Shown here: piece by piece, positions 14,260-62,413 of the stretch | How the letters are laid out: every line of letters begins with the position of its first letter | How positions within the stretch are numbered: position 1 is the first letter of the stretch | DNA from: Erysipelotrichaceae bacterium | Lineage (GTDB): Bacteria > Bacillota_I > Bacilli_A > Erysipelotrichales > Erysipelotrichaceae | Direction of reading: 5' to 3' | NCBI GenBank assembly: GCA_017404205.1 | Contig: JAFRCV010000006.1 | Location: 1 to 64,000 of the forward strand | Length of the DNA: 64,000 bases | The notes under the pieces: model-generated | The model's database searches: none | Told to the model about the DNA's origin: nothing | The model's input: only the letters and a program-made list of their open reading frames with translations | Translations under genes and position numbers: made by a program

Positions 14260-17200
14260 TTATTCAGATCTTAAAGCGATGACTGGATCTTGTTTAGCTG
14301 CTTGTTTTGCAGGGATAAGTCCAGAAATTATTGTTAAGAATACCGAAATAATAACTAAGATGATAGCGTATTTACTTGGCAATATAGCATTAATAAAATC
14401 ACTATTAGCCAATGAATGGATAATTGCATTTATTGGTATTATTAATAAATAAGATGCACCAACTCCAATCAATCCTGATAATAATCCGATGATAAATGTT
14501 TCGGCATTAAATATTGATGAAACATTAGCTTTTGATGCGCCTATAGCTCTTAAGATACCAATTTCTTTTCTTCTTTCAAGAACAGATATCAAGGTAATAA
14601 CCGCAATCATGATGCTAGAAACAATCAACGAAATAGAGACAAACGCAATCAAAACATAAGTTACACTATCAACAATTGTCTTTACAGATGACATTAATAT
14701 TCCAGTAATATCAGCATAATTTAATTTTTGTTCTTGATTGGCGTTTTCGTTGTAGTTGTTAAGCCAACTCATAAAGTTTTCTTTTGATTCAAAGCTATCA
14801 AAATAGAATGATATTGATGTTGGCTCATTTTTATCTTGGTATCCTAAAGCGATTAAATTACTTGAGGCAGTAGAAATAGATTCATTGTTCATAGATGCAT
14901 TCATGATTCTCATAAACTCTTCCGCATCAATATTAAATTTGAATGCATTTTGAAGTTTATTGGCATCAATTGTAAACAAATTAGACATATCACCATTATT
15001 AAACATTGATTTACCAATTTCAGTTATCAATTGTGTCATCAAATTGTTCATATATGTTTGAACAGTATTAGTTACATATTTTTCAATTGTGTTAATAATA
15101 TCTTCATCATTCATTATGTTAGAAATAATTTGATTTATATCGATATCTTCAATATCGAAAATATCAGCATCTGGAAATAATGATGATTCGTTTTCTCTGG
15201 CTTGATTGATAAATTCATTAAATAATTTGTTCGCAATAGTTCTAATTTCTTCTTCTTTTAATACGTCACTAGATAATAAATCTTCTTGATATTCATTGAC
15301 AAATTCTTCTGATACATTTGTATATTGTTTGTAATTATCTTTGTATACATAAATCATCTTTGGAGATTCTTGATCAACAGTGAATCCTTTTACCTCATGA
15401 TAATTGAAATATTCACTATCGTTGTTATCAGGCAAATTGCATCCAAGTAAACGGTTATCATTTACATATCCCAATGGACAAGCTTCACCTTCAACATTTT
15501 CAGGTACATAAAAGCTATATGAATTAATATAATTGTCAATGACATTTCTTAATGTAGAAGTAATTTCATTAATTGTTTCTTGGTAGCCATCTATTTGGAT
15601 CTCTCTTAAATCATCGAGAGAATTGTTTATAAGCTCATTAACAATTTTTGTAATATTCGTATTTACAAAATTATTGTTGATATTAATTTTGAATGCTTCA
15701 TTTAACATTTTTTCATCTATAGATATAGCATCTTGCATATTAAATGTCTTTTTTAGTTCTTCATTTTTTTGATCAAATGATTTGCTAGAAAAGACATCAA
15801 TATCTTTATTGTTTAATTGTTTCTTAACGATTGAAGATGCATAAGCATTATCAATAATATATTCTGTTAATTCTTTTGAATAATTAACCCCAGGAGATAG
15901 TGCATTTGTATTAGAACCTTCTTTAGGAACTACAATACCAACAACATCTAGTTTTAATGCGTTGTCATATTGTTTTTTCATATATTCTCCATCATTAGAC
16001 ATATCTTCATAAATATTGTATTCACCATTGTATTTATAAAGATTACTGGCATTTATAAGTCTTAAATCAATATCTAATAATTCATCATATGAATAAACAT
16101 TCATATTTTTTTCATTGTTGGTGCTTGTTTGTGTAATTAGGTTTTTTAATTCAGAATAATTCTTAAGTCCTAAAGAATATGCTAATAAATCAGATATGCT
16201 ATCTTTTTGCGATAACACAATAATTAGTTCATTGTATTTTTCAGGCCATCTGCCCGCAAGTATTTCATAGTCGTTTTGGATATCTTTGCTGTCATTCATC
16301 TCGTTATATATGCCAAAGCCATATGACGAAGAAGTTGATGTCATATATGAAGAAAATGAATTAGATGTCATTGATGAAAACATTCCGTTAGGATTAAGCT
16401 TTACAAGGGAATTTGATGAATCTATTGTATAGATAATAGGTGATATAGAATAAGTGTAAGTTATATTAGTAATATCATCTTTGATTTCTTCATAATTATT
16501 TTCTAAATATTGTTTAAATGATTTTAAATCATTTGTGTTAACTGAAGAAAACATATTTGACATAAAGTTTTGTTCTTTTACATAGCCTTCATCTACTTCA
16601 TATTCAGCATCGCTACGCATTGATAAAACTAATGACACAAAATCTGCTGATTCTTTATTAATAGTTAATGGATAAGATGACAGCGTATTTCTTTGAATAG
16701 AATCAATATAATTTTGAAATCCTTGGGAAACTGACAATATCAAGGCAATTCCAATAATACCAATTGATCCCGCAAAGGCCGTTAAAATAGTACGCCCTTT
16801 TTTCGTCAATAAATTGTTAAAAGACAATGTCAAAGCTGTAAAAAAACTCATTCGAGCTTTGCCAATACGCTTGCTACTAATTATTTGTTTTTCTTTGATT
16901 AAATATGGATTAGAGTCATCAACAATTTCACCATCTTTAAGTCTTACAATTCTATTGGCATAATTGTCAGCTAATTCGGGATTATGAGTAACCATAACAA
17001 CAAGCCTATCTTTAGCCACTTCTTTTAATAACTCCATTACTTGAATTGAAGTCTTTGTATCTAAGGCACCTGTTGGCTCATCAGCCAAAACAATATCAGG
17101 ATTATTTACTAAGGCTCTAGCTATGGCAACTCTTTGCATTTGACCGCCAGATAGTTGATTTGGTTTTTTATGAGCCTGTTCTTTTAGGCCAACTTTATCT

Positions 17201-56237: not shown

Positions 56238-57212
56238 ATGAATCTAAACTTTGATGTAATAAATCCTGTTTTTAATCTGTCAAGTAAAAATATTAAAACT
56301 ATTAATGAAATAGAAACATTTTTGAAAGACGCAAAAAAACAAAAGTTAAAGAAATTCGTAAGAAAAAAATCCCAAGTTAGATCCGTTTATTCATCTTTAG
56401 CTATTGAAAACAATTCTTTATCTTTGGAAGATGTTAATAAAATCTCTAATAACATATCTGTATCAGGAAAAAGAAAAGAGATTCAAGAAGTCAAAAATGC
56501 AATAGAATTATATGAAAATATTGTTAGTTATAATTGGCGAAAAGAAAAAGATTTAAACAAAGCACATAAAGTATTAATGAAATACTTTGATGATGATAAT
56601 GGAAATTATAGAAAACATGGCGAAGGTGTAAAAAGAGGAAAGAAGATTGTCTTTATTGCACCCGAATCAACTATTGTTCCCGATCTCATGAAAAGCCTAT
56701 TTAAATATATAAAGAATAACGAGAAAAAAATACATCCGTTAGTTTTATCAAGTATATTTCATTATTATTTTGTATATATTCATCCATATACTGATGGCAA
56801 TGGTAGAGTTGCGAGATTTTGGGTAAGCTTAATGCTTACTGACTATAATGAAGCGTTTACTTATCTTCCTTTTGAGGAGACAATTTATAAACATCGAAAG
56901 GAATATTATAAATCAATTGAATCATGTCATCTTAATGGCAACGCAAATGTTTTTATTACATTTATGCTGAAAATCATAAAAGAAACAATAATAAATACTA
57001 CCCAGGAAACTACCCAGAAAAAAATAAATAATAGTCAAAAGAAAATCATTGAATTGATAAAAGAGAATCCTAGCGTTACAAGAAAAGAAATGGCTGAAAA
57101 AATAGGAATAAGTGATGATGGTATTAAATACAATCTTAACAAACTTAAACAAATGAATATACTTACAAGAGTAGGTTCTGACAGAAGCGGTACTTGGAAA
57201 ATTAGTAAGTAG
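56238..57212 (+). CDS. Fic-domain AMPylase with N-terminal inhibitory motif and C-terminal winged helix
   Basis: The 324-residue protein has the Fic core HPYTDGNGRVARFW (catalytic His182) and a class II inhibitory helix S-x-x-x-E-N (SLAIEN, residues 53-58). A C-terminal winged helix follows (about 262-320, KKIIELIKENPSVTRKEMAEKIGISDDGIKYNL). It would transfer AMP from ATP to a target hydroxyl, restrained by Glu57. TATAAT (56226-56231) lies six bases upstream of the ATG with no ribosome binding site, so leaderless. It marks the start of the accessory zone. Confidence 0.9.
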   Translation: MNLNFDVINPVFNLSSKNIKTINEIETFLKDAKKQKLKKFVRKKSQVRSVYSSLAIENNSLSLEDVNKISNNISVSGKRKEIQEVKNAIELYENIVSYNWRKEKDLNKAHKVLMKYFDDDNGNYRKHGEGVKRGKKIVFIAPESTIVPDLMKSLFKYIKNNEKKIHPLVLSSIFHYYFVYIHPYTDGNGRVARFWVSLMLTDYNEAFTYLPFEETIYKHRKEYYKSIESCHLNGNANVFITFMLKIIKETIINTTQETTQKKINNSQKKIIELIKENPSVTRKEMAEKIGISDDGIKYNLNKLKQMNILTRVGSDRSGTWKISK

Positions 57213-57380: not shown

Positions 57381-57405
57381 GCTCCTTTCTACAAAAGAAA
57401 ACACT

Positions 57406-57469
57406 TTAAAAAATAAAAAGTACATCATCTCTGACGTACTTTGAATGCAAATGGAGCAGATGAAGGGAT
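57406..57469. repeat. Left direct repeat of the RiPP-like cassette, tRNA 3'-end-like core
   Basis: This 64-bp sequence recurs at 60412-60476 with one substitution and one single-base length difference. It contains a hairpin (AAGTAC with GTACTT) and ends in TGGAGCAGATGAAGGGAT. The reverse complement, ATCCCTTCATCTGCTCCA, reads like the T-loop end, acceptor arm and CCA of a tRNA-Gly-like gene. That is the classic attachment site of integrative elements. Confidence 0.8.
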
Positions 57470-57501
57470 GTGCTCATTAAATAATTCTATACTTAGTTAG
57501 T

Positions 57502-57533
57502 AACGAAGAACCTTTATTTAAAGGCTTTTCGTT
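57502..57533. terminator. Hairpin inside the left end of the cassette
   Basis: Two 15-base arms starting AACGAA and ending TTCGTT match at 13 positions around a TT loop. It lies in the 409-bp stretch without a full-length gene (57213-57621). That stretch also holds the BRO-N fragment, the IS-like remnant and the left repeat. Confidence 0.45.
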
Positions 57534-57588
57534 TGACTTCAATTGAGTTCAATTTAGTATAAATTAGCAAAATGTTCTCCAACTCAAA

Positions 57589-57622
57589 GCAAATCCTAAC
57601 AATGTTCATTGGTAGGTTTTGC
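57589..57622 (-). terminator. Terminator of the Xre repressor gene
   Basis: A 16-bp imperfect stem (GCAAATCCTAACAATG with CATTGGTAGGTTTTGC, two mismatches) begins at the stop codon of the minus-strand repressor gene. Confidence 0.6.
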
Positions 57623-57837
57623 TATACATTTGTTTCTTTTTTATTAGTCCTATTAAGCAAGTAATCGATTGATACATTATGATAATTAGCAAGTTTAATC
57701 AATATTTCTGTTGGTATATCTAAAACACCTCGTTCATAATCGCTATAAACTCTTTGACTACACGAAAGGATAATGCCCATTTCTTTTTGAGTCATATCTT
57801 TATCCTCTCTGAGATTTCTTATACGTTCATACTTCAT
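57622..57837 (-). CDS. Xre-family repressor of the RiPP-like cassette
   Basis: The 71-residue protein is a single helix-turn-helix domain (IRNLREDKDMTQKEMGIIL, followed by SCSQRVYSDYERGVLDIPTE). It is divergent from the peptide operon with an 83-bp gap that holds a perfect 7-3-7 palindrome between the promoter elements. It lies inside the direct repeats, so it travels with the cassette and probably represses it. Confidence 0.85.
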   Translation of the reverse strand: MKYERIRNLREDKDMTQKEMGIILSCSQRVYSDYERGVLDIPTEILIKLANYHNVSIDYLLNRTNKKETNV

Positions 57838-57853
57838 AATCTAAATTTTAATG

Positions 57854-57860
57854 TAGCGGA
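57854..57860. promoter_or_regulatory. Operator half-site TAGCGGA
   Basis: It is the same 7-base word as in the palindrome at 57879-57895, 25 bases away, and lies closer to the repressor gene start. It may be a second site for autoregulation. Confidence 0.5.
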
Positions 57861-57870
57861 TATTACACTA

Positions 57871-57899
57871 TTGAAATATAGCGGAAAATCCGCTAAGAT
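57871..57899 (+). promoter_or_regulatory. Promoter of the peptide-kinase-like-radical SAM operon with embedded operator
   Basis: TTGAAA (57871-57876) and TAAGAT (57894-57899) are 17 bases apart. The palindrome TAGCGGA-AAA-TCCGCTA (57879-57895) fills the spacer. A bound repressor would exclude RNA polymerase. Transcription would begin near 57906, within AAGGAGGAG, the ribosome binding site of the peptide. Confidence 0.75.
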
Positions 57900-57920
57900 A
57901 AAGATAAGGAGGAGTTAATT

Positions 57921-58022
57921 ATGTTAAATATTACTAATGTTGTATCTGCGTCTGCTGGTTCATGCCAAGGCTGTGGTAAGAACTGGGACAACGACTGTGG
58001 AAGAAACGCAAGACACGGTTAA
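57921..58022 (+). CDS. Putative RiPP precursor peptide (33 aa, Cys-rich, WDN motif)
   Basis: The peptide has a short uncharged N-terminal part (MLNITNVVSASAG) and a C-terminal part with Cys15, Cys18 and Cys26, Trp22-Asp23-Asn24 and a basic tail ending RHG. AAGGAGGAG lies six bases before the ATG, the strongest site in the neighbourhood. It is the first gene of an operon with a kinase-pattern protein and a radical SAM-SPASM enzyme. Aromatic-x-Asn triplets such as WDN are substrates for three-residue cyclophane-forming radical SAM enzymes. Cys residues could alternatively become thioethers. The product is unknown. Three Cys and several Gly in 33 residues differ from surrounding proteins. Confidence 0.75.
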   Translation: MLNITNVVSASAGSCQGCGKNWDNDCGRNARHG

Positions 58023-58026
58023 TCTA

Positions 58027-58932
58027 ATGAAAAATTTAGAACCATTAAAAATTTTTAATGACCAAGCCATCGGGAAGTTGTTTATGCCCGATGGCTTGTG
58101 TTATGAAACGCATTTATCACTAATACCTACGATTATTCACGGACGTTCAATTGCTGTTAAAGTTGAAGAATATAAATGGATTTTAATTAAAGGTGGAGGA
58201 TGGAATTTTGGTGGCCCTTTAGTATATATATCTAAAAAAGATGCAGAACTTGTTTTTGGATTATGTCCTACTGAAGCTGCAAAACGTGAAATAGTAATTA
58301 GCAATAAAATAGAAGAATTTACTGATGATTTTCCAAAAGCACTTTATTATAAAAGATTCCTAGATTATAAAATGCCTGAAAGATTTGATTTTTTTAGTGG
58401 CATCAAATATTCAGATGGAAAATTAGTCGATCCATGTTTGCTTTATACACAAGTAAAATTTCCATACAGAGTTGCTGATTTAGCATATCTGAATGATAAA
58501 GAAAAAGAAGAATGTATCAATTTGTGCTGCAAATATTGGAAAGTATCTCGCGAAGAATACATAGATTGTTTTGCTAAGAAATTGGCTGAACATGTAGCTA
58601 TTTTACATAAAAATAGTTTTATTAACGATACTCTTGAATATAGCAATGTAACAATGCTTGCAGAGATTGTCGATTACGAACTTTTTACTTATCCAGGGAT
58701 ACTGTTTGAAGATGGGGATGATGGGCAAGAAAAGCCAAACGAAAGAAAAGAAAAAGAAATTCTTTATGCTTCAGAAATAGTTCTCCAATTATCAAATTTC
58801 ATTCATAAACCATTAACGTTATTTGAAACGTATAGAAAAGTTGTCGATGAATATAAAAAAATTAACTTGGATTTTATTAATAGCAATGATGCAATTAATA
58901 AAATTTATAATGGAGAAAGTGTAATTTTATGA
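58027..58932 (+). CDS. Unknown protein with kinase/SelO-like catalytic pattern, in RiPP-like operon
   Basis: The 301-residue protein is not recognised as a whole. Three stretches recall the protein-kinase fold, especially SelO/YdiU-type AMP transferases. The first is a glycine-rich loop with Lys (WILIKGGGWNFGG, Lys55). The second is a helix with Arg-Glu (AAKREIVISNKIEE, Glu88). The third is a catalytic-loop pattern H-K-N-S-F-I-N-D-T-L with SNVTMLAEIVDYE, where Asn207 and Asp216 could bind metal. The ATG at 58027 begins five bases after the peptide stop; a longer frame from 57937 would overlap the peptide gene and is rejected. It overlaps the radical SAM gene by four bases. Role could be peptide phosphorylation, AMPylation or self-protection. 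Confidence 0.6.
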   Translation: MKNLEPLKIFNDQAIGKLFMPDGLCYETHLSLIPTIIHGRSIAVKVEEYKWILIKGGGWNFGGPLVYISKKDAELVFGLCPTEAAKREIVISNKIEEFTDDFPKALYYKRFLDYKMPERFDFFSGIKYSDGKLVDPCLLYTQVKFPYRVADLAYLNDKEKEECINLCCKYWKVSREEYIDCFAKKLAEHVAILHKNSFINDTLEYSNVTMLAEIVDYELFTYPGILFEDGDDGQEKPNERKEKEILYASEIVLQLSNFIHKPLTLFETYRKVVDEYKKINLDFINSNDAINKIYNGESVIL

Positions 58933-60332
58933 TCATCAATCAAAAAGATATAATTATTCCACCTTGGATTTCTACACATACATATTTTTATAATACCGAT
59001 AAAAGTAGAACATATATAAATAACGAAAAAAGACACACATATTTACAATTGGATGGATTATCTAGTGACTTTTGGTATTTGTTGGTGCAAAATGATTTGC
59101 AAATGTTTGATAGTTTTATTAATAAAAATGATTTAGCTAACCAAGTTAAAACTTTCATTGATATGCTGGAAAAACAAGGTTTAATTATTTATGATTTGTC
59201 AGAATTAGATAATATAGAAGTATTTGATGATTTAGAAATTATTAATAAAAAAAGTGATGAAGATTTAGAAAGCAAATTTATCCAAGAGCGTAATGATTGG
59301 CTATTAGAAAACAATTTTCTTGCATCACTTTTTTTTGAATTGACATACAGATGCAATTTAAAATGCGTACATTGTTATAATCCTAAAAATATTTCATATA
59401 TAGAAATACCTTTTGAAAAAATAAAAGAAATAATTGATGATGCATATGACATAGGAGTATTTAAAATAATACTATCAGGTGGTGAATCTACAACTTATAC
59501 ACGTTTTATTGAATTAGTAAAATACATCAGATACAAAAAAATGTCAGTCGAAATATTCACTAATGGGCAATTGTTAGCGGTTGATGATGCCTTGTATAAC
59601 GAACTTGTATCTATATATCCACACCAAATATGCTTAAGTTTATATAGCACCAAACAAGAAAAACATGAAAACGTAACTGGAATACCAGGGTCTTATAAAA
59701 AAACATACGAACTAATAAAAAAACTTAGAAGCGATAATGTAACGGTACAAATAAAAAATTTTTTATTAAATTTTACATGTGATGATTGTATAAATGTGAA
59801 AAACTTTGCTGATAGTATAGGAGCTAATGATATAGCTGATTTATCTCTTATTCCTACAATTGAAGGCGATAAAAAAACATTTGAATATGTTGTTGATGAT
59901 AATAATCTCTTTGAATTATATGTTAATCCAGAATCTCCTTTGTATATAGGGGAAAATCCAAAATTTTTCGATATAGAGGAGAATAAAGATACTTCTCCTT
60001 GCTTGGGGGGTTATACCGGTTTATGCGTATCTCCGACTTTAGATGTAAATATATGTGTATCAATGCCTAAACCGCTAGCTAATCTAAACAATATTTCTTT
60101 AAAAGATTTATGGAATGGAGCAGTGACGCACAACGAAAATAATGAACTGTATAAATGGCAAAAAATAACCAACTCAGATTTGAAAGAGTGCTATAAACAT
60201 GAGTATTGTAAATTTTGTCATTATTGTGCAGGAATGGCCTTTTTGGAAAATGGATATCTTAAAAAATCTGATATTTTATGCAAACAAGCAATTGCCAAAT
60301 TTAAAGCATATGCATATTTAAAAAAGAAGTGA
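58929..60332 (+). CDS. Radical SAM/SPASM peptide maturase with PqqD-like N-terminal domain
   Basis: The 467-residue protein has an N-terminal domain (about 30-90) with a PqqD/RRE-like winged-helix pattern (TYLQLDGLSSDFWYLLVQND, MLEKQGLIIYD). A radical SAM core follows with Cys142-x3-Cys146-x2-Cys149 (CNLKCVHC) and ILSGGESTTY. A SPASM domain with many Cys residues (PCLGGYTGLCVS, ICVSMP, CYKHEYCKFCHYC, and a final Cys near ILCKQ) completes it. Such enzymes crosslink or epimerise RiPP precursors using two auxiliary iron-sulfur clusters. It starts by ATGA overlap with the preceding gene. Reaction type cannot be told from sequence alone. Confidence 0.88.
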   Translation: MIINQKDIIIPPWISTHTYFYNTDKSRTYINNEKRHTYLQLDGLSSDFWYLLVQNDLQMFDSFINKNDLANQVKTFIDMLEKQGLIIYDLSELDNIEVFDDLEIINKKSDEDLESKFIQERNDWLLENNFLASLFFELTYRCNLKCVHCYNPKNISYIEIPFEKIKEIIDDAYDIGVFKIILSGGESTTYTRFIELVKYIRYKKMSVEIFTNGQLLAVDDALYNELVSIYPHQICLSLYSTKQEKHENVTGIPGSYKKTYELIKKLRSDNVTVQIKNFLLNFTCDDCINVKNFADSIGANDIADLSLIPTIEGDKKTFEYVVDDNNLFELYVNPESPLYIGENPKFFDIEENKDTSPCLGGYTGLCVSPTLDVNICVSMPKPLANLNNISLKDLWNGAVTHNENNELYKWQKITNSDLKECYKHEYCKFCHYCAGMAFLENGYLKKSDILCKQAIAKFKAYAYLKKK

Positions 60333-60347
60333 AAGTAGAATGTAATC

Positions 60348-60422
60348 ATGGGGTATGGACCAGAAAAAGCTTTTAAGGTGTTTTATTGGCCTGATGTTAA
60401 CAAATATCCTATTAAAAAATAA
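60348..60422 (+). CDS. Very small ORF (24 aa), uncertain
   Basis: It starts MGYGPEKAFKVFYWPD and ends in the right direct repeat. No ribosome binding site is obvious. It could be a gene end created by integration or a chance frame. Confidence 0.25.
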   Translation: MGYGPEKAFKVFYWPDVNKYPIKK

Positions 60423-60476
60423 AAAAGTACATCATCTCTGACGTACTTTGAATTCAAATGGAGCAGATGAAGGGAT
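60412..60476. repeat. Right direct repeat of the RiPP-like cassette, tRNA 3'-end-like core
   Basis: This is the 65-bp partner of the repeat at 57406-57469. The shared part includes the hairpin AAGTAC-GTACTT and the core TGGAGCAGATGAAGGGAT. The copies enclose 2.94 kb carrying repressor, peptide and two enzymes, but no recombinase. Confidence 0.8.
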
Positions 60477-60787: not shown

Positions 60788-61711
60788 ATGGAAATTAACA
60801 AATTAATACAAGAAAAACTGCAAATAACAAAAAGATTAGAAAAATTAAATTATGGCACAATCGAAATAAGAGAAAAGGATTCTAAAAAGTATATTTATAC
60901 ACATTTTCGTAATGAAGGCATACTAACTAGTAAGTATGTAGGTGAATATAGTAATGAACTTTATAATTTAGTTTTAGAAAATAACGAATTAGCAAAAGAA
61001 TTAAAGAAAAGATTAAAAGCTATCAATAAAGAATTAAAGAGTATAAATTATGTTGAACAAGGCGATCTAAAACCAGAAGTTGAATTAAATATAGATTTTG
61101 CAAGAAGAAATTTAGTTGATTCTATTTATAAACAAGCTATGTTAGAAGGGGTTGCTACGACATATTCGGATACTGAAGAAATCATTAATGGTGGAAAAGT
61201 TAATGGTATGACTGCTGATGATATTGGCAAAGTTGTAAATCTAAAACATGCTTGGGAATTTATTATGAGTAAAGATGTTATCACATATCCTTCAAACTAT
61301 GCTATATTATGTCAACTAAACGCATTAGTTGAAGAGGGCTTTTCATATACAGCAGGGAAAATTAGAAGTGTTCCTGTTACAATAGGCGGGTGCTCATACA
61401 TTCCTCCAATTCCTTTTGAGAATCAAGTGATTGAAGAGCTAAGAGATATTGTTAATAGTAAAGATATAATTGATAGAGCAATTGATTCGTTGTTGTATAT
61501 TATGAGAAGACAAATATTCTTAGATGGAAATAAAAGAACAGCAGTACTTTTTGCTAATCACATATTAATCGCTAATGGAAAAGGTTTGATTGTTATACCA
61601 GCAGATAAAGTTGGTGAATATAAAAAACTATTAGTAAGTTATTATGAAACAAATAATCCAAAAGAAATAAAGAAGTTTTTAATAGATAAATGTTATTTAA
61701 AAATTAATTAG
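60788..61711 (+). CDS. Fic/Doc-like protein with Gln in place of the catalytic His
   Basis: The 307-residue protein has a charged helical N-terminal part (NELYNLVLENNELAKELKKRLKAINKEL). A Fic region follows with TYSDTEEIINGGKVNGMTADDIGKVVNLKHAWEFI and the core RRQIFLDGNKRTAVLFANH. Aligned to HxFxDGNKR, the catalytic His position is Gln242. Asp246, Gly247, Asn248, Lys249 and Arg250 remain, and DGNKR resembles Doc kinases more than AMPylases. AAAGGAG precedes the ATG. It may bind nucleotides without classical AMPylation. Confidence 0.82.
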   Translation: MEINKLIQEKLQITKRLEKLNYGTIEIREKDSKKYIYTHFRNEGILTSKYVGEYSNELYNLVLENNELAKELKKRLKAINKELKSINYVEQGDLKPEVELNIDFARRNLVDSIYKQAMLEGVATTYSDTEEIINGGKVNGMTADDIGKVVNLKHAWEFIMSKDVITYPSNYAILCQLNALVEEGFSYTAGKIRSVPVTIGGCSYIPPIPFENQVIEELRDIVNSKDIIDRAIDSLLYIMRRQIFLDGNKRTAVLFANHILIANGKGLIVIPADKVGEYKKLLVSYYETNNPKEIKKFLIDKCYLKIN

Positions 61712-61723
61712 TTTAGAGGAAAA

Positions 61724-62413
61724 ATGAAAAAATACGAATTAAAACCTACAGATGACAACATATTAATTACATTAGAAAAGGATCTTTTAAATAGAAACAA
61801 AGATTTGTTTTCTTTTATTAAATTGATTCAATCACCTATTTCATCAGAAATGATTACTTTAGATGGAAAATGGGGATGTGGAAAAACATTTTTTGTGAAG
61901 CAATTAATGATGTCACTAAATTCATTTAATAGATATTCTAATTATGAACAAGACATAAGAGATAGAGTTAAGAAAGTATATAAGGACAAGATTGAAGAAG
62001 TTATTTCAAAGATTAAATCAGCTTTAGGTTCAGGTATGTCTTTGAGAACAAAGATTAAATTAATTGAAAACTTTATTGAAAATCTTCAAGGCGATGATGT
62101 AAGAGGCTCATGGGAATCTTATATCGATAAACAAATCATTGAAGATTTAGATCAAATCATATATGATGAAAACTTAAATAAAGATGAAACATATAAGTTT
62201 ATCGAAGATGCGTTAAGAACAAGTAGATTTGATTCAGCAGGAACCGCTTTAAATAAGATTCTTCCTCCAATATCAAGATTCGATAGTGATGATAGAGAAA
62301 ACAAGAAAAACATCGTCATTGGCAAACTAACTGATTTCTTTAACAGATATTGGGACATAGGAATAGATTTTGTTCAAGCAATACTAATGAATAATTTAGA
62401 TAATTATTCATAA
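61724..62413 (+). pseudogene. Chimera: KAP-type P-loop NTPase N terminus joined to HsdR C terminus
   Basis: The 229-residue ORF starts like a KAP-type NTPase (LITLEKDLLNRNKDLFSFIK, then Walker A DGKWGCGKTFF at residues 47-57). From about residue 75 it changes to sequence matching the C-terminal helical domain of type I restriction HsdR subunits (DRVKKVYKDKIEEVISKIK, LRTKIKLIENFIENL, ENLNKDETYKFIEDALR, ALNKILPPISRF, KKNIVIGKLTDFFNRYWDIG). Neither part is complete: no Walker B, no helicase. A deletion joined two defence genes in frame. TTTAGAGGAAAA precedes the ATG, so it may still be translated. Confidence 0.7.

Follow-up and report, generated by a model that had tools for sequence, protein, structure and literature searches.

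A kinase fold in peptide modification is known from the lanthipeptide synthetases (LanKC, such as ThurKC, 8sap), in which a kinase domain, joined to lyase and cyclase domains in one polypeptide, phosphorylates Ser/Thr. A second described group comprises the radical S-adenosylmethionine (SAM) enzymes CteB, SuiB, SkfB, AlbA and PapB, which combine a CX3CX2C motif, SPASM cysteines and an N-terminal region resembling the recognition element (RRE) of ribosomally synthesised and post-translationally modified peptides (RiPPs) with an adjoining small precursor that has a Cys near an acidic residue; PapB forms Cys-Asp/Glu thioethers with 0-6 intervening residues (PMC9413430). SelO/YdiU (PF02696; 6eac, 9jym, 6lna) is a widespread pseudokinase of about 475 aa known as an AMPylase of cellular proteins, and SelO (AMPylation) and SidJ (glutamylation) both carry out non-kinase chemistry on the kinase fold (PMC12599244). 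Here we describe a cassette in a 64,000-nt stretch of Erysipelotrichaceae DNA (contig JAFRCV010000006.1, positions 1 to 64,000; hereafter the window) in which genes for a 33-aa peptide, a 301-aa SelO-like protein and a SPASM radical SAM enzyme stand side by side behind a divergent repressor gene.

The radical SAM enzyme shares with CteB and its relatives the CX3CX2C motif, the SPASM cysteines and the adjoining small peptide gene, and probably also the RRE-like N-terminal region; its identity to everything found outside its own family is under about 35%. Compared with known SPASM RiPP loci, the cassette has a SelO-like partner and lacks an exporter or protease; compared with LanKC, its kinase-fold protein is separate, SelO-like and paired with a radical SAM enzyme; and unlike SelO, this protein has a peptide and a radical SAM enzyme as its constant partners. 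The initial annotation linked this protein set to no described RiPP class, and a search of open-access full texts for SelO with radical SAM or RiPP, and for AMPylation or pseudokinase with RiPP, likewise found no such system described (other papers may exist).

On balance we think it likely that the cassette is a tightly regulated mobile unit for peptide modification of the RiPP type. The bolder proposal, which we hold tentatively and at rather under even weight, is that it represents a new RiPP class: a SPASM radical SAM enzyme would crosslink a ribosomal peptide, and a stand-alone SelO-type pseudokinase would nucleotidylate or adenylate-activate it. The SelO fold would then serve for the first time in making a peptide natural product, through a set of three genes that has spread between phyla. 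If this is true, SelO chemistry would gain a defined small substrate, through a minimal SelO-like protein bound up with one peptide and one radical SAM enzyme, and radical SAM peptide pathways would gain an ATP-dependent step. The unit has 14 natural variants across several bacterial groups. Spread of the unit without a transporter, protease or immunity gene also raises the question of an intracellular role for the modified peptide.

The conserved peptide and the two adjoining enzymes

The four genes reported in the initial annotation are all present, in the tight arrangement that it described, and so are the direct repeats (65 bp). The 301-aa open reading frame (ORF) starts 4 nt past the peptide stop, the radical SAM ORF overlaps it by 4 nt, and the three to four genes, from repressor through maturase, occupy about 2.7 kb. 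The three core features, with the evidence for each, are:

57921-58022, plus strand: candidate 33-aa precursor peptide, MLNITNVVSASAGSCQGCGKNWDNDCGRNARHG (tblastn, alignment, codon divergence)
58027-58932, plus strand: 301-aa SelO-like kinase-fold protein (AlphaFold2 (AF2) model, fold match, profile comparison, invariant residues)
58929-60332, plus strand: 467-aa SPASM radical SAM maturase (domain matches, invariant Cys, fold match)

Searched as single sequences, neither the 301-aa protein nor the radical SAM enzyme returned useful relatives from genome_contigs or viral_contigs. Among plasmids and phages the 301-aa protein found nothing and the radical SAM enzyme matched only distant SPASM proteins; a class sample gave only short stray matches to the 301-aa protein. 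A class-wide search yielded a degraded radical SAM fragment, 45% identical to the window enzyme, in genome G403, and the family was found by using an alignment of the window enzyme with this remnant as a profile on genome_contigs. The profile identified 15 loci in public genomes: 12 contain the peptide, the 301-aa gene and the radical SAM gene in the same order, two (L039 and L040) are truncated where their contigs end, and one (L042) is the G403 remnant. A 13th intact locus outside the window, L070, was identified in the family to which a Gastranaerophilales metagenome-assembled genome (MAG) belongs.

A conserved small ORF precedes the enzyme genes in all 13 of these other intact loci, in agreement with the earlier view of a self-contained RiPP-like unit; in the 12 intact database loci it was matched by tblastn at the same position with E-values of 1e-3 to 2e-7. 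The peptide is 33 aa long in 13 of 14 loci. At L034:6226-7224 a one-base difference relative to L036 removes the peptide stop and the frame runs into the SelO-like gene, through either fusion or assembly error; since the difference is a single base in a single MAG, we did not use L034 as a natural peptide-enzyme fusion. Divergence at the first, second and third codon positions of the peptide gene is 0.29, 0.31 and 0.61, the third being about twice the first and second, which indicates that the peptide is translated and under purifying selection.

In the 13-row peptide alignment M1, L2, I4, V8, G17, C18, G19, D23, C26 and G27 are invariant. The L070 peptide has Glu at position 23 and substitutions at V8, G17 and G19, so that with L070 included the invariant or nearly invariant residues are M1, L2, I4, C18, D/E23, C26 and G27, and the family core, judged from the alignment, is C-x4-[D/E]-x2-C-G. 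The peptide probably divides into a leader of about residues 1-16 and a core of about residues 17-33. The initial annotation had singled out three Cys and a Trp-Asp-Asn (WDN) triplet in the window peptide and considered a cyclophane and/or thioether product: C18, C26 and the acidic residue 23 have held up across the family, whereas C15 and W22 are private to the window copy. This rules out a three-Cys core and also WDN, of which only D23 is conserved, as a family feature, and makes a Trp cyclophane unlikely for the family. C18, D/E23 and C26 would be compatible with a putative Cys-to-carbon thioether of the ranthipeptide or sactipeptide kind. The L070 peptide, which lacks the C-terminal Gly and ends in CC, weakens the idea that this Gly is conserved because activation requires it.

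The 301-aa protein, in which the initial annotation had recognised a kinase pattern, matches no Pfam, NCBIfam or PADLOC family and has no significant sequence match in the PDB. Its AF2 model, built from 13 sequences, is confident except at residues 60-76 (pLDDT 86, pTM 0.88), and places it on the SelO fold. Foldseek gave SelO/YdiU as best matches, with the LanKC structure 8sap at rank 15, and in VIA-align the top seven rows are of SelO/YdiU type (one of them, 6iii, is titled uncharacterized protein) with Z-scores of 16.4-17.6, followed by Bud32 at 11.6; the best SelO match (Z 17.6) covers 250 residues at 3.6 Å. A profile comparison with five SelO sequences paired K55 with Lys113, R87-E88 with the RE of Glu136, R148 with Arg183, N207 with Asn253 and D216 with Asp262, the SelO numbering being placed by motif. 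The SelO residues K113, E136, R183, N253 and D262 act on ATP and metal (PMC8097203); K55, E88, R148, N207 and D216 are invariant in the 13 sequences and are predicted to do the same here. Among the six SelO ligands K113, E136, R176, R183, N253 and D262, R176 is the exception, aligning with T141, while the other five correspond to invariant residues. The profile score, although weak, exceeded those of 200/200 column permutations. The motif order (KG.G ... RE ... R ... N ... DY) and the Lys/Glu/Arg/Asn/Asp ligands are those of SelO/YdiU; by contrast, the family has an extra Gly-rich stretch, GGGWNYGGP, ahead of RE and, in most members, [DE]Y[GSA]N in place of NTDN. In its catalytic loop N200-D201 is invariant and residue 204 is always acidic. 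None of the 13 members matches the PF02696 model at E<=10. Taken together, these results indicate that the 301-aa protein is SelO-like and outside PF02696.

The radical SAM enzyme gave Radical_SAM and SPASM matches in all members (SPASM in 15/15 at E<=1). Its CX3CX2C motif (C142/C146/C149) and seven cysteines of the SPASM region (C358, C376, C421, C427, C430, C433 and C451) are invariant in 15 rows. The PqqD-like domain proposed earlier for the maturase was matched in 6 of 15 homologues (best E 1.3e-3). In the whole-protein model (pLDDT 85.5), residues 6-82 follow a strand-strand-strand-helix-helix-helix order, and the model aligns with SuiB over residues 7-454, the RRE of SuiB included, so that the N-terminal region of about residues 6-85 is, by the model, probably RRE-like. 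The nearest folds are CteB (5why, Z 24.6), SuiB (Z 23.3), SkfB, ChlB and anSME; the best fold matches are peptide-modifying SPASM enzymes, and by fold the maturase does not group with a non-peptide SPASM enzyme. By NCBIfam score the grouping is less clear: NirJ2, AhbD and AlbA score similarly, but all equivalog scores are far below every cut-off, which places the enzyme in a separate subfamily. A heme-enzyme reading of the NirJ2 and AhbD scores was set aside, as nothing links heme enzymes to a conserved peptide gene.

Predicted regulation, patchy spread and probable mobility

Upstream of the peptide gene the window contains the following elements, the promoter and operator being predicted from the DNA:

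57622-57837, minus strand: divergent gene for a 71-aa Xre/Cro helix-turn-helix (HTH) repressor (HTH_3, E 5.7e-11)
57871-57876, plus strand: predicted -35 box of the peptide promoter, TTGAAA, with a 17-bp spacer
57879-57895: predicted operator, a perfect palindrome (TAGCGGA-AAA-TCCGCTA) across the spacer and the -10 box
57894-57899, plus strand: predicted -10 box, TAAGAT
57906-57912, plus strand: ribosome-binding site AAGGAGG upstream of the peptide, the strong site noted earlier

This layout recurs. A divergent small HTH gene occupies this position in 11 of 13 loci, the HTH proteins differing from one another, and a near-consensus sigma-70 promoter lies ahead of the peptide in most loci. Palindromes between the -35 and -10 boxes were found in L028, L030, L031 and L035 and, by eye, in L029 and L032 (AGGTCAAAAGACCT); for the window palindrome, TAGCGGAAAATCCGCTA, 0 of 500 shuffles reached it. 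For most loci taken singly the shuffle test does not reach significance, so the argument that the palindrome over the spacer and -10 box is the predicted repressor operator rests on the layout recurring across loci. In L028, L031 and L035 the peptide gene is separated from the enzyme genes by stable hairpins with U-runs, which suggests that the peptide may be produced in excess of the enzymes; across loci, the gap from the peptide to the next gene ranges from overlap to over 100 nt.

Judging from record titles, the hosts belong to Clostridia, Spirochaetia, Gastranaerophilales and Firmicutes, and most come from metagenomes of gut and rumen. The labels given to MAGs may be inexact: the flanks of L037 (titled Christensenella) are 85% identical to those of L042 (titled Firmicutes). 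Distribution is patchy, with the cassette in 1 of 273 genomes in the window's family and in 2/46 and 2/107 (one a weak stray match) in others, and it is single copy per genome. Pairwise distances of the 301-aa protein and the radical SAM enzyme are strongly correlated (r=0.92, Mantel P 2e-4), and those of the peptide correlate with either enzyme at r=0.72-0.77. Queries with the radical SAM enzyme, the 301-aa protein and the peptide pattern gave no match in viral contigs, and there is thus no sign of phage carriage. The flanks consist mostly of housekeeping genes, all different, with no conserved neighbour family beyond the related-host pairs L033/L038, L031/L040 and L037/L042. The unit therefore comprises the peptide and two enzymes, usually with the divergent small HTH gene. 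The flanks also have no exporter, protease or immunity gene common to the loci, extending to the family the earlier remark that the cassette holds no exporter or protease.

Two related genomes contain homologous sites at L042:7950-8002 and L037:720-2860, the latter with an intact cassette; L042 lacks 2.1 kb (the peptide, the 301-aa gene and the N-terminal half of the radical SAM gene) and keeps the C-terminal half. In L028 an exact 20-bp direct repeat, AACCACCTAAGGTTCAACAG, at positions 2639 and 5626 surrounds the HTH gene, peptide, SelO-like gene and radical SAM gene, a second sign of whole-unit insertion. In the window the enclosing repeats, 65 nt each and 94% identical, can be explained further, since each holds the 3′ end of a tRNA-Gly gene:

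57405-57469: left direct repeat, with the 17-nt 3′ end of tRNA-Gly(GCC) in minus sense and a terminator-like hairpin (AAAGTAC...GTACTTT), an att-like tRNA remnant
60412-60476: right direct repeat, a second tRNA-Gly 3′-end remnant with terminator

An intact tRNA-Gly lies on the same contig (67554-67627, minus strand). Most simply, DNA segments would have been added at this tRNA gene one after another, with the 3.0-kb cassette as one such segment and the Fic/KAP genes forming the next. We saw no integrase gene inside the repeats and accordingly rejected the idea of a cassette that carries its own. The genes that flank the cassette in this tRNA-Gly island, at 56238-57212, 60788-61711 and 61724-62413, encode two Fic-domain proteins and a KAP-type P-loop protein, the last of which also matches the C-terminal part of a type I restriction R-subunit; the island looks like a defence or conflict island. 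The best reading of the spread is a three-gene unit moving horizontally among unrelated bacteria.

Proposed mechanism and competing explanations

In the mechanism that we propose, the small Xre protein would repress one strong promoter, and on its release the 33-aa precursor would be made in excess, followed by the two enzymes, both of which would take the peptide as substrate. The RRE-like domain of the radical SAM enzyme would hold the N-terminal part of the peptide (MLxITxxV...), while 5′-deoxyadenosyl radical chemistry would crosslink the C-terminal half with its conserved GCG[KR]xx[D/E]xxCG segment. The enzyme probably forms thioether links around Cys18-x4-Asp23-x2-Cys26, the most likely bond being a Cys-to-carbon thioether that joins Cys18, Cys26 or both to the acidic residue at position 23 or to one of its neighbours. 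The SelO-like protein would bind ATP and perform a second, ATP-dependent step on the same peptide, either AMPylation or adenylate activation of a carboxylate, the latter in parallel with the kinase-fold protein SidJ. Because there is no exporter, protease or immunity gene, the product would probably act inside the cell or leave by host machinery.

Several observations weigh against this mechanism. The SelO-profile match is weak (hhalign probability 7%, E 0.005). With Thr141 in place of SelO Arg176, Gly/Ser/Ala in place of the Asp before Asn253, and the C-terminal part of SelO missing, the SelO-like protein may catalyse differently or not at all. It could also act on the radical SAM enzyme or on a host protein instead of the peptide. 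Finally, the Cys18-x4-Asp23 spacing differs from the native Cys-x3-Asp of PapB, and the cassette has no protease for leader cleavage.

Four rival explanations were considered, in falling order of weight. The same SPASM and RRE architecture, with its fold likeness to CteB, SuiB and SkfB, would be expected of an ordinary Cys-rich radical SAM RiPP. Such a ranthipeptide or sactipeptide would serve as bacteriocin or signal, and the kinase-fold protein would be a catalytically dead scaffold or chaperone helping the peptide to bind. The catalytic Asp of HRD-type kinases is replaced by Thr/Ser202 and the SelO Asp252 position is Gly/Ser/Ala, as a dead protein would allow. However, the predicted ATP/metal ligands other than the Arg176 equivalent are invariant in 13 sequences, which scaffolds seldom retain, and an exporter or immunity gene common to the loci is lacking; we regard this explanation as unlikely, if the strongest of the four. 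Ranked just after it, and also unlikely, is a conflict module, toxin-antitoxin-like or anti-phage, in which the modified peptide is a self-acting effector freed on inactivation of the Xre repressor. As a proposal about what the product does, it is compatible with the chemistry given above. It would fit the divergent Xre repressor with an operator within the promoter, the setting of the window copy, whose tRNA-Gly island also encodes two Fic proteins and a KAP-type P-loop protein, a DNA methylase and an NOV_C protein adjoining L037, a recombinase, Rep-like protein and integrase near L036, and the loss of the cassette in L042. Yet PADLOC matched no dedicated system, other copies sit among housekeeping genes, and harmless accessory genes often have the same kind of repressor arrangement.

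An intracellular cofactor or metal-ligand pathway that starts from the 33-aa peptide, comparable to those for pyrroloquinoline quinone (PQQ) and mycofactocin, would account for the missing exporter and immunity genes, the fixed peptide length, the PqqD-like RRE and the single copy per genome. We find it improbable: there is no peptidase and no conserved client oxidoreductase adjoining, and patchy, repressor-controlled presence fits an accessory trait better. Slightest of all is the case for the 33-aa ORF as a mere translated leader that couples translation to the enzymes, with the radical SAM enzyme and SelO-like protein acting elsewhere. The 4-nt distance to the 301-aa gene in the window and the hairpins after the peptide in three loci could be read in this way, but constraint acts on the amino-acid sequence, its C-terminal half included, the gap to the next gene varies, and RRE-type maturases act on peptides.

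Other radical SAM loci were encountered along the way. The genome that contains the cassette has a second, distant SPASM/PqqD radical SAM enzyme (L002; G000:C18, about 15395-16573) with its own 39-aa Cys-rich peptide, MNYKKPTIIAQNKAKGSFAAGCPSNYMGGTWCRQCDRAQ, which has no NCBIfam match. A separate putative radical SAM RiPP locus at L024:1191-2777 consists of a PqqD-like small ORF, a SPASM-type radical SAM enzyme and a 41-aa peptide, MKYVKPQVVKFEVSIKVNSNSSDRSSCDGGHCVKSRYGQDH.

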